Assembly: GCF_009831455.1 (NCBI RefSeq)
Contig: NZ_WOWO01000001.1
Location: 186,001 to 250,000 of the forward strand
DNA: 64,000 nucleotides
Reading direction: 5' to 3'
Source of the DNA: Salinirussus salinus
GTDB taxonomy: Archaea > Halobacteriota > Halobacteria > Halobacteriales > Haloarculaceae
The notes under the pieces were generated by a model. It did not search any database, was not told where the DNA came from, and saw nothing but the letters and a program-made list of their open reading frames with translations. The stretch's first letter is position 1. Each line of letters opens with the position of its first letter. The translations under genes were made by a program, and so were the position numbers. Of the stretch, positions 14,934 through 20,896 are shown piece after piece.

Positions 14934-16253
14934 TCAGTCGTCGCCCGGCGTCGCCATTCCCTCGGAGCCTGCGAAGGTGGCCCCGTACCGCCGGAGCACC
15001 CACACGGTCAGCCCGAGCGCGAGAAGGGCGATGGCGGCGATCAACAGGAAGGCCGTCCGGTAGCCGGCGCGCTCGATGACGACGCCGAAGACCGTCGGGG
15101 CGACCGCGCTGCCGAGCATGATCCCGACCGTGATGGCCGCGAAGTTCTGGCCGAGGTCCGCGCGCCCGGAGATCCGGTCGGCCAGCGTCGACCGCGCGGG
15201 GGCGCTGGGGCTGCGGACCCCGCCTATCAGGACGACCGCGCCCACGGCCGCGAGCGCCGGCAGAATTCCAGAGGCGAGCACCCCGACGACGAGCGCCACG
15301 AGCGCGTAGCTGGCGACCATCACCGGCCCCGGCGCGACCACGTCCGCGAGCGTCCCGCCGACGAGGATCATGACCGCGCTGGCGACGAACATCCCCGTCA
15401 GTGCGAGGTTGGCGACGCTCTGGGAGACGCCGTAGCCGTTCTCCAGGAAGACCGCGGCGTAGGAGGTCACTCCCCACGCGGCCGTCGAGGAGACCAGCGC
15501 CAGCGCCGCCAGCGCGACGATCGCTGGCGAGTCCGTCAGTTCGCCGACCCGCTCGCGGAAGCTCGACAGGGCCGCCCGCGCGCGGTCAGCCGCGCCCGCG
15601 TCGGCCGCGCCCGCACCGCTCGCGCCCGCGGCCGGGGTATCGCCCTCGACCAGCGCCGGCCGAGTGACGGAGCCGTCGACGAGGAAGTGGAGCGCGAGGG
15701 TCGCGAGAAGCCCGTAGACCGCGCCGACGCCGGCGAGCAGGCCAAGTGCCACGCGCCAGGAGTAGCCCGCCGCGAGCACGCCCGTGATGACCGCGGGCGC
15801 CGCCGCGAATCCGAGGCTGCCGGCGAAGCCGTGCACCGAGAAGGCCCGCCCGCGGTAGGACTCGGGCGTGGCATCGGAGAGCAGCGGGAAGTGGACCGGG
15901 TGGTGGGCGGCGACCCCGAGGCCGACGACGGCCTGGCCGACCACCAGCCACGCGAAGGAGGGCGCGGCGGCGACGATAGCGACGCCGAGGGTGCCCAGGC
16001 CCAGACAGGCCGCGAGCACGAGCGTCCGCGAGCGGGTATCGGAGAGGTAGCCGTAGGGGAGCAGGCAGGCGGTGTTGACCAGCGACTGGACGCCCATCGC
16101 CACGCCGAGCGCGCCCAGCCCGACCGCAAACGAGCCGGTGAGGACGGTGAGGATGGGCGGCAGGATCACGAGGTACATGTGGTTGATGAAATGCGAGCCA
16201 CTGACCAGCGCGACCACCAGCCCGGACTCCCCGCTGACCTCCTCCGGTACCAT
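14934..16253 (-). CDS. MFS transporter, 12 TM
   Basis: 439 residues with twelve hydrophobic segments in two six-helix halves, joined by a cytoplasmic linker (about residues 195-235) with Ala/Gly repeats. Features seen: SHFINHMYLVILPPIL in TM1, a LPYGYLSDTRSR loop 2-3 motif, VAAHHPVHFPLLSD in TM4 and SPSAPARSTLAD in the second half. The HHP motif in TM4 resembles fosmidomycin-resistance (Fsr) type efflux proteins. The substrate is not predictable. It faces the 600-base repeat-rich gap at its 5' side. Confidence 0.88.
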   Translation of the reverse strand: MVPEEVSGESGLVVALVSGSHFINHMYLVILPPILTVLTGSFAVGLGALGVAMGVQSLVNTACLLPYGYLSDTRSRTLVLAACLGLGTLGVAIVAAAPSFAWLVVGQAVVGLGVAAHHPVHFPLLSDATPESYRGRAFSVHGFAGSLGFAAAPAVITGVLAAGYSWRVALGLLAGVGAVYGLLATLALHFLVDGSVTRPALVEGDTPAAGASGAGAADAGAADRARAALSSFRERVGELTDSPAIVALAALALVSSTAAWGVTSYAAVFLENGYGVSQSVANLALTGMFVASAVMILVGGTLADVVAPGPVMVASYALVALVVGVLASGILPALAAVGAVVLIGGVRSPSAPARSTLADRISGRADLGQNFAAITVGIMLGSAVAPTVFGVVIERAGYRTAFLLIAAIALLALGLTVWVLRRYGATFAGSEGMATPGDD

Positions 16254-16862
16254 CTATCGGGATGGCGGGCGCCTGGAGTAAAGTCGTTGCTACTGTCTCT
16301 CGCGGCACGCTCTCTGCATGGAGTACGGTCCGCGATTTGTGTGTAGCTGAATGAGTTCGCACTCGAGAAGACCGAGCAGCAAGAAAGCCCCCGGCGGCTG
16401 CGGTCCCGGGGCTCGCTGCGCTCCTCGCTTCGCTGCGGTGCTTACGTCGCCCGGGTTCCCCCAGCCGCCGGCCCCTTTCAGCCCCACCCGCGTGGAATGC
16501 CGGGCCAGCATTGGGCGCGCGCTGTCGCGGCTCCGGCCGCGACGACTGCCGTGCGAGGGATGAGCGACCGAGCGGAGCGAGGGAGCGAATCGGCTGGGGA
16601 GGTGTGTGGCAAGCGTTGCGCGAACGGAGTGAGCGCAACGGAGACGCGAGCGGCAACGCCGCGAGCGCGGGTGGGGCTGAAAGGGGCGAGCCGGTGGACG
16701 AGCGAGACGACGCAAGCACTACAGCGAACGCAGTGAGCGAAGCGCGCAGCGAGTCGTAGCCGTCCACCGGCTCGGGGCTTTCTTGCTGTTCCGAACGCAG
16801 TTCCAACTCTCACGGACACCACCCACCCCGAAGCTTATCCAGACCCGCCGCGACCAAACACC
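16254..16862. other. Gene-free 609-base gap dominated by composite palindrome
   Basis: No real gene seen; frames here are rich in Arg/Ser/Ala repeats. The region holds the composite inverted element at 16377-16788 (separate entry). Flanking it are a 5' segment for the MFS gene and, at 16789-16862, the promoter of the cyclase gene; GAAGCTTATCC at 16829-16839 is TATA-like. Confidence 0.6.
16377..16788. repeat. 412-bp symmetric composite palindromic element
   Basis: The outer ends are a perfect 15-bp inverted repeat (CAGCAAGAAAGCCCC at 16377-16391, complement at 16774-16788). Inside, each end holds its own perfect 10-bp hairpin stem: 16391-16400/16462-16471 and 16691-16700/16761-16770. The two stems have different sequences. 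A perfect 22-bp inverted repeat (16471-16492 and 16666-16687) closes the centre. The whole thing looks like two roughly 120-bp structured units facing each other around a 173-bp core. The core has GAACGGAGTGAGCGCAAC-type short palindromes common in haloarchaea. No transposase. Confidence 0.8.
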
Positions 16863-17531
16863 ATGGCCTGGTACGACCTCACACAGCCGTTCCACGCCGG
16901 GATGCCCGGCTCGAGTTCCCTGCCCGAACCCGAGGTAGAGACACTCTCGACCGTCGAGGAGGACGGCAGCCACGTCCAGCGCTACGCCGCCCCGACCCAC
17001 ATCGGGACCCACGTCGACGCCCCCCTCCACTTCGTCGCCGACGGCGACACTATCGACGACCTCCCGCTGGACCGCTTCGCCGGCCCGGCCGTTGTCCTCG
17101 ACCTGGACCGCGAGGAACCCGGCGAAGTCCCCCTCGAAGACATCGAGGCCGCGGCCGAGGCCGCCGGCGGCATCGAACCGGGCGATATCGTCCTCGTCCG
17201 CACGGGCTGGGGCGCGCACTTCGACGACGAGGAGACCTACCAGCGCTACCCCTGGCTCGCCCCCGACGCCGCGGAGTGGCTGCTCGACCGCGGGATACGG
17301 ATGCTCGCGGTCGACACCATCAGCCCCGACCGCGCCCGGGCGATGCGCCCCGAGGACTGGGACGACTACCCCCACCACCGGGCGCTCCTGCCGGAGGGCG
17401 TCCTGATCGCCGAGCACCTCTACCTCGAGGAGGTCGTCGACGCCGGCCGGGACCTGGAGGTGATGGGGTTCCCGCTGAAGCTCCAGGGTGGAGACGGCGC
17501 CCCCGCGCGCTTTGTGGCCCGCGAGCGGTAG
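16863..17531 (+). CDS. Cyclase / kynurenine formamidase-like hydrolase
   Basis: 222 residues. The family metal-binding motif HxGTHxDxPxHF is intact as HIGTHVDAPLHF near residues 46-57, with a later acidic/His cluster (DYPHHRALL, AEHLYLEEV). It opens with the family hallmark WYDLTQPFHAGMP. Members are metal-dependent amide hydrolases, including kynurenine formamidase of tryptophan breakdown; no other kynurenine gene is nearby, so the substrate is open. It converges with the next gene. Confidence 0.88.
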   Translation: MAWYDLTQPFHAGMPGSSSLPEPEVETLSTVEEDGSHVQRYAAPTHIGTHVDAPLHFVADGDTIDDLPLDRFAGPAVVLDLDREEPGEVPLEDIEAAAEAAGGIEPGDIVLVRTGWGAHFDDEETYQRYPWLAPDAAEWLLDRGIRMLAVDTISPDRARAMRPEDWDDYPHHRALLPEGVLIAEHLYLEEVVDAGRDLEVMGFPLKLQGGDGAPARFVARER

Positions 17532-20449: not shown

Positions 20450-20896
20450 GGGCCGAGAGGGAGCGCCGGCCACAAAACTCCCGGGGGCGCGGCGACGGTC
20501 GTGTTTGTTTCTGTAGTCGTGCTGGCAGGGATCCCGGGACCAGCAGGCAAGCCCCGAAATGTTCGACTCGGGAGACTCGCTGCGCTCCTCGTCCACCGGA
20601 AGACTCGCTTCGCTCGCCTTCCGAGCCTTCCCTCGTTGCACTCGGGAAGACCTCGCACGGTGCTGTCGCGTGGGCGGGAACGAGTTCCCGCTCGCTCCCG
20701 TTCGCTTCACTCACGGGAACGGCACGAGGCCGCGACAGCGCGCGCCACATGCTAATTTCACATGGGCGGGACTGAACCGCCATCCCGCCAAACGAAACAC
20801 CACCGCAGCGACCGGTTCCTGCCGGCCGTCCGCGGCCGCTCCCCCCGACCGGCCCGACTCCGTCACCCCTATGTCCGGTGCCGGGAAACGGGGGGT
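20450..20896. other. Gene-free 447-base gap with nested hairpins
   Basis: No convincing gene; open frames are Ser/Arg-rich shadows. It contains several short GC-rich palindromes and a long inverted repeat: GCTGTCGCG at 20662-20670 pairs with CGCGACAGC at 20731-20739, with inner hairpins such as CGGGAACGAGTTCCCG. The last 150 bases before ArgS look unstructured, and CTATGT near 20870 could be a weak TATA element for argS. Confidence 0.5.

Follow-up and report, generated by a model that had tools for sequence, protein, structure and literature searches.

What kind of element is the 412-bp nested palindrome at positions 16377–16788 of the window, the 64,000-nt stretch of the Salinirussus salinus genome that was analysed? 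A sequence-only reading had seen in it two facing structured units enclosed by inverted repeats, and had proposed two opposed copies of a mobile or structural unit. The repeats were recovered as described: the outer one (CAGCAAGAAAGCCCC, 16377–16391) recurred inverted at 16774–16788 as a perfect 15-bp match, and the inner one (GCCCCTTTCAGCCCCACCCGCG, about 16471–16492) had a perfect 22-bp inverted copy at about 16666–16687, lying within a 32-nt pair designated I1. The proposed borders fit the core and not the whole element, since terminal repeats common to the copies lie outside them; the palindrome is the core of an element of approximately 490 bp (about 16335–16823) with the order terminal repeat, arm 1, centre (here plus module M), arm 2, terminal repeat. 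Both facing units are present, as hairpin modules of 113–120 nt, and a third module, M (16514–16610), lies between them. The stems of the two hairpins (16377–16489 and 16669–16788) are unlike each other, as had been claimed, and near-perfect rather than perfect. The element sits between two divergent genes, whose names were read from the translations. The features are as follows.

14934–16253, minus strand: MFS-type transporter gene
16335–16376, plus strand: left terminal repeat, type T3, resembling the T3 ends of L021 and L043 (start approximate)
16377–16391, plus strand: A motif, outer inverted repeat of the core, read from the sequence
16377–16489, minus strand: arm 1, a structured hairpin module matched by R1 at 112.6 bits (E = 7e-23)
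about 16391–16401, paired with 16461–16471: variable stem of arm 1
16470–16489, plus strand: B motif, inner inverted repeat, equal to the 5′ end of the putative arm 1 RNA (minus strand)
16490–16513: centre spacer separating the facing units, placed by comparison with dimers lacking M (centre 15–28 bp)
16514–16610, minus strand: module M (GCCACACACCTCCCCAGCC...GCCGCGACAGCGCGCGCC), which is dispersed as a repeat in its own right and here separates the centre from arm 2
16611–16668: two simple hairpins that bridge M and the arm 2 inner repeat, arranged as in L003–L006, L008 and L011
16669–16688, minus strand: B motif of arm 2, inverted
16669–16788, plus strand: arm 2, a structured hairpin module matched by R1 at 116.2 bits (E = 1.1e-23)
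16774–16788, minus strand: A motif of arm 2, inverted
16789–16823, minus strand: right terminal repeat, type T2, resembling the T2 ends of L021, L043 and L045 (end approximate)
16863–17531, plus strand: cyclase-like gene
20504–20804: second, degraded copy with T1 and T2 ends, M and a one-arm remnant

The right T2 end of the window copy also resembles that of L176, from the same genus. In the degraded copy, R1 matched 20541–20643 on the minus strand (25.6 bits, E = 8e-4), and the flanks, GCGGCGAC and GCAGCGAC, were identical at 7 of 8 positions as read by eye.

The structure exceeds chance: folding of the window element gave z scores of −8.1 and −7.8 on the two strands, with none of 100 shuffles as good. 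Both arms matched one covariance model, and its stems covary across 47 sequences, in agreement with a structural unit present in two opposed copies. Distinct arm candidates numbered 318; a cut-off of at least 8/12 stem matches retained 295 of them and removed 23. The 295 arms carried 214 different 5′ stems, and 94% of their stem cells were Watson-Crick pairs, compared with 49% after shuffling (maximum 51%). Because the stem filter itself raises the figure of 94%, the test on an alignment of 47 arms matters more; these were picked for diversity and stem quality (at least 11/12), and include arm 2 of the window as one row, arm 1 being absent. Of 30 predicted pairs, 20 showed compensatory change; paired cells amounted to 96.6% versus 74.6% in shuffles, and the covariation score was 0.549 versus 0.156 when shuffled and at most 0.076 when partners were slid, phylogenetic non-independence being handled only in part. 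The apical part has a conserved sequence (GNCGAYGYAAGCACYGCA...GMGCGCAGCGAGYC) and likewise covaries, at positions not included in the stem by which the arms were chosen: columns 53/99 were CG in 37 arms and GC in 6, and columns 49/104 were CG in 28, UG in 14 and UA in 4, with no CA. By the standard applied to structured RNAs, compensatory changes exceeded the alignment controls.

The G-rich strand of an arm reads 5′ GGGYGGGACUGAAAGGGGC-stem...stem-GGGGCUUUC 3′. Mismatches at stem positions 2–10 on this strand were G·T in 48 cases versus A·C in 15 (p = 4e-5), with G·T in the majority in 19 genomes versus A·C in 4. Equal numbers would be expected from a double-stranded cruciform; the bias therefore indicates that pairing is selected on one single strand, and the arms are read as RNA or single-stranded DNA. 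The two arms carry their G-rich sequence on different strands, a layout better explained by RNA read from the centre outward than by a common single-stranded DNA intermediate. G·U intermediates were few at most pairs, a scarcity that is unusual for RNA evolution and is also compatible with copying between the stem strands. The strand bias of the mismatches is the one observation that points to transcription of the arms, which, we infer, may act as RNA. A search of Rfam 15 gave no match in the window at gathering score, for which reason a known Rfam family was rejected, and no match below E = 0.9 in the three stretches tested. The conserved loops were also considered by eye as a kink-turn or a CRISPR repeat, and both ideas were dropped, either for misfit with the covariation or because the likeness was visual only.

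A bias of G·T over A·C would likewise be expected if the arms were DNA hairpins recognised in single-stranded form by a Y1 (HUH) transposase, as are REPINs and the ends of IS200/IS605, and the paired inverted hairpins match the REPIN layout. We regard this as very improbable. Neither the S. salinus genome, despite its 50 B motifs, nor its congener has a Y1 transposase gene (PF01797), and genome G016 gave 0 matches versus 36 B motifs; the 8-bp duplications and terminal inverted repeats described below are not expected of Y1 transposition; and each arm measures about 120 nt instead of 20–40 nt and has internal loops that are conserved. A Y1/REPIN system was rejected on the lack of the transposase in the own genome.

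The copies follow a common plan: A, variable stem, apical part, stem, B, centre, and then the mirrored order to an inverted A. The centre was 15–28 bp in exact pairs; the cores were 259–543 bp, to which the ends are added, and no conserved ORF was noted. Further copies of M were found throughout the S. salinus genome, M occurring also alone (for example L021 at 1887, L030, L034 and L039). M has a near-terminal palindrome, lacks inverted repeats and always ends in GACAGCGYGCGCC; it looks PATE-like. One-arm forms with M on the opposite side also exist and stop exactly at the GCGCGCC end of M. Small perfect hairpins, such as CGGGAGAGCGAAGCTCTCCCG, were seen inserted within arms and M (L005, L010, L025, L033 and L037), which suggests that the element grows by insertion of hairpin into hairpin. 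In L067, L154, L094 and L096, the 30-bp flank adjoining A was tandemly duplicated together with A, and at G023:C1:1097497-1097691 flank and A were repeated up to five times with a period of 45.

Within a pair, the arms resemble each other less than chance would predict. A G-type stem was combined with a non-G-type stem in 99 of 127 pairs, half being expected, and stem identity within pairs was 4.46/12 versus 5.37 ± 0.15 in shuffled pairs. Identical arms would form long perfect palindromes, which cells would lose, and this probably explains why unlike arms persist; such loss would also account for the stems having been described as perfect but unlike.

The sequence-only reading had proposed a search for single units in haloarchaeal genomes, and the covariance model R1 matched 82 of 117 genomes of the order, covering 37 of 49 genera and 11 families. 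The S. salinus genome itself gave about 100 local BLAST matches to the window copy, and these together with the B-motif matches grouped into 45 clusters; with up to 3 mismatches, B occurred 27 times in forward and 28 times in reverse orientation (reversed control, 0 and 1). Among the 146 genomes of the family, the A motif CAGCAAGAAAGCCCC was present with at most 1 mismatch in 66, and B with at most 2 mismatches in 98 genomes and 21 of 22 genera, at up to 180 copies per genome (reversed control, 0–3). The exact facing-pair centre was found in 107 stretches among 84,980 species genomes, and the matches listed were all haloarchaeal by title. The window copy matched 36 plasmid records. The exact B motif was not found in viral contigs, nor did phage records match the element, and a viral origin was rejected on both counts. 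On a plasmid of DL31 (CP002989.1), the annotated hypothetical protein Halar_0093 overlies an arm (L247, 1009–1542); ORFs like this one in haloarchaeal annotations may be spurious.

Mobility was examined at the ends of the copies. Alignment of the flanks outside A exposed terminal repeats, starting GGTACTGTTCAGAGTAGTG and GGTCGTGTTCAGATAAGCTG in Halonotius roseus, where copies are about 340 bp long, and GGTCGTGTTTAGTTAGG and GGTGGTGTTTxGTTTAGCAG in the S. salinus genome. For the count of target duplications, 69 of 100 two-ended elements had both termini under a loose rule, the other 31 having been dropped beforehand. Perfect 8-bp duplications were found in 12 of the 69 (0.01 expected) and matches of at least 7/8 in 17 (0.32 expected), the expectation being taken from all cross-pairings of flanks with the same slack. 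Perfect duplications included L036 and L045 in the own genome and L176 in the same genus. When the flanks of 10 H. roseus insertions were joined with the element and one target copy removed and compared with two sister species, 8 had an uninterrupted empty site in a sister species (L062, L110, L121, L126, L127, L128, L139 and L145), that of L128 being empty in one sister and occupied in the other; L108 and L140 were without a clear empty site. The family is mobile, as shown by these copies from the family and close kin, not by the window copy. Its members are short and transposase-free, with terminal inverted repeats, target duplications and precise empty sites, as in MITEs.

The mobile nature proposed earlier was thus upheld, and what moves is mostly the whole pair, not a single unit. 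The check for target-site duplications that had been suggested succeeded at other copies of the family and gave none at the flanks of the window copy. An unaltered region at one and the same locus across many genomes was to have argued for a fixed local feature; instead, 39 relatives searched with the window locus lacked an intact orthologous neighbourhood, and homologues of the flanking genes (L157, L158, L160 and L171) were without a B motif. With no target duplication and a gene pair that is not conserved, insertion of the window copy itself is not established.

A fixed host feature, such as a terminator, an insulator or a regulatory RNA of neighbouring genes whose mobility is historical, would agree with the intergenic position of the copies, the conserved structure and the occupation of some orthologous sites in both genomes. 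We hold it to be quite improbable, because the element is missing from sister species at 8 of 10 sites and species of one genus range from 0 to more than 70 copies (G059–G065; in genus g8, 0 versus 73 B motifs). Gene context, obtained with a simple codon-usage gene caller, placed the clusters of the own genome in 14 divergent, 14 tandem and 7 convergent intergenic spacers, with 4 inside called ORFs. The excess of divergent over convergent spacers is opposite to what terminators would give, and a simple gene terminator was rejected on this context (14 versus 7). Some elements adjoin homologous genes across genera (L047 with L126, L103 and L063; L015 with L085; L019 with L110), among loci that had been selected for containing an element; chance, hot spots or old common insertions could explain this.

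Not all copies have the same kind of end. CTAG occurred on at least one side in 35 of 92 elements and on both sides in 8, compared with about 0.03 expected per side. The two-sided cases, with CTAG 30–55 bp outside A, were L058, L079, L096, L099, L117, L129, L132 and L167; these ends are unlike IS6 and occur in Haloarcula rara and others. They possibly derive from another transposase family. Ends that are IS6-like in some clades and CTAG-containing in others speak for a core or single arm that is itself the mobile unit, landed in or bounded by differing transposon ends, as do the one-arm forms with M on the other side and the precedent of the small mobile repeats (SMRs) of Haloquadratum described in PMC3119063. 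Against this reading, which we judge unlikely, the 8-bp duplications lie beyond the terminal repeats and enclose the complete element, the complete element is also what the empty sites lack, and terminus and A are separated by a narrow range of distances (31–48 bp in most clear cases).

We conclude that the window palindrome is probably the core of a dispersed, non-autonomous, MITE-like element carrying a head-to-head, structured-RNA-like cargo. The cargo would be the pair of hairpin modules, and many copies would be moved in trans by an IS6-type transposase. Genes for IS6-family transposases (PF13610) were present in 8 of 10 host genomes examined. Several resident IS6-family elements have the ends GGTAGTGTTCAGATAAGCTG / GGCGGTGTTCAGATAAGG, or GGTCGTGTTTAGTTAAGA in H. 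terrestris, with 8-bp duplications such as TGTCACAC (L219); the family elements compared with them end in GGTCGTGTTCAGATAAGCTG and GGTCGTGTTTAGTTAAGA. The ends of the H. roseus elements match the IS6 element of that species (L204), and the single IS6-like element of the S. salinus genome (L209) has related, not identical, ends (GGCACTGTCTAGTTGAG). We infer that an IS6-family transposase, present now or formerly, moves the copies with IS6-like ends. Haloarcula rara gave no PF13610 match and no IS6 element with matching ends, 4 of the 17 genomes with at least 20 B motifs had no detected IS6 transposase, and transposase number showed no correlation with copy number (Spearman rho −0.04, 68/146 genomes). 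Given this lack of a copy-number link, the CTAG class of ends and the absence of Y1 from the own genome, the interior is what stays constant, with a vehicle that seems to vary.

The core was inverted relative to flanks and ends in 3 of 6 ortholog pairs (L252/L259, L254/L288 and L074/L152), L252 and L259 being identical at 153 of 156 positions only when inverted; it was not inverted in L099/L132, L061/L128 and L255/L265. Among 14 Halonotius copies (H. roseus, n = 12; H. terrestris, n = 1; H. pteroides, n = 1), the core lay one way relative to the end types in 8 and the other way in 4, and 2 were unclassifiable; in these Halonotius copies the orientation of the centre with respect to the arms varies as well. 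In L099/L132 and L061/L128, one site differs in the length class of the centre (23 vs 16 bp) and the other has the centre alone inverted, which suggests that the centre, bounded by the B repeats, can be swapped or turned round. Recombination between the inverted A or B repeats, or template switching, would yield core inversion.

Both arms face away from the centre, and any transcript that comes in from the left or the right therefore has one arm in sense; the same would hold for a transcript crossing the element in either landing orientation or after a flip of the core. Haloferax volcanii can terminate transcripts at RNA hairpins, at 59% in one case tested (PMC7237163). With these two points, a two-way transcription stop or RNA-end protector is the simplest function to envisage: the pair would be an orientation-independent RNA hairpin that makes insertion harmless to the host, a model that we put forward as tentative and somewhat doubtful. 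Alternatively, the arms may work in trans as small RNAs or may bind a protein as RNA. The centres, at 15–28 bp, are too short for two obvious promoters. A broader proposal, for which the case is a little stronger but still short of even, is that the arms are new functional, order-wide small structured RNAs of about 120 nt, kept at tens to more than 100 copies per genome as head-to-head pairs, with transposon-end vehicles exchanged between lineages, heterotypic pairs and a two-way invertible core. On this proposal heterotypy would keep the pair from ever turning into a single long perfect palindrome, and the entire core would serve as a cassette that can invert and works either way round.

Among known systems, the REPINs/BIMEs and BOX elements of bacteria are modular, intergenic inverted pairs of hairpins that are shorter, use a Y1-type helper and make no 8-bp duplication. 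The present family shares with REPINs and BOX the hairpin pairing, modularity and intergenic location, and differs in its longer arms and 8-bp duplications. With Rfam families it shares structured RNA with covariation, and no family matched. The criteria for PATEs or IS200/IS605 derivatives do not fit dimer elements that have terminal inverted repeats and target duplications. As described in PMC3119063, the SMRs of Haloquadratum are of approximately 110 bp, have inverted repeats, make no target duplication and are moved by unknown means; the SMR/PATE/MITE repeats of Haloquadratum walsbyi are similarly transposase-free units of about 110 bp in many copies. The lack of target duplication given there for SMRs and PATEs sets them apart from the present family, which does make one and so departs from the SMR definition.

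IS6-family elements come closest at the ends. According to PMC7986276, the family is marked by GG tips, cTGTt and 8-bp repeats and has a haloarchaeal clade A, and two IS6-type MITEs measure 227 and 336 bp; PMC6807381 names the IS6-type MITEs MITEHarch3 and MITEBth2 and lists ISH14, ISH29 and others as haloarchaeal members. The present elements are alike in GG tips, TGTT in the terminal repeat and the 8-bp target duplication, and in Halonotius and L176 the first 18–20 bases are near-identical to those of IS6 elements. Unlike them, the family has no transposase gene and a structured non-coding interior, and the ends in the S. salinus genome are only loosely alike. MITEHarch3 and MITEBth2, compared by description and not by sequence, are also non-autonomous with IS6-type ends; the text on them mentions no structured or duplicated interior. 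No description of the present element was found in the literature, most subscription journals and ISfinder lying outside the scope of the search, and the hairpin repeat family appears to be unnamed so far.

The covariation signal is among the clearest obtainable from sequence alone, and it marks a hairpin family that is widespread in haloarchaeal spacers. If the arms are RNAs, a many-copy class of non-coding RNA has been overlooked; if they act only as DNA, the family is a natural laboratory for palindromes, with perfect stems, unlike arms and nested flips. Either way, the element would explain a class of spurious annotated ORFs such as Halar_0093 and provides a ready insertion marker for haloarchaeal strains.
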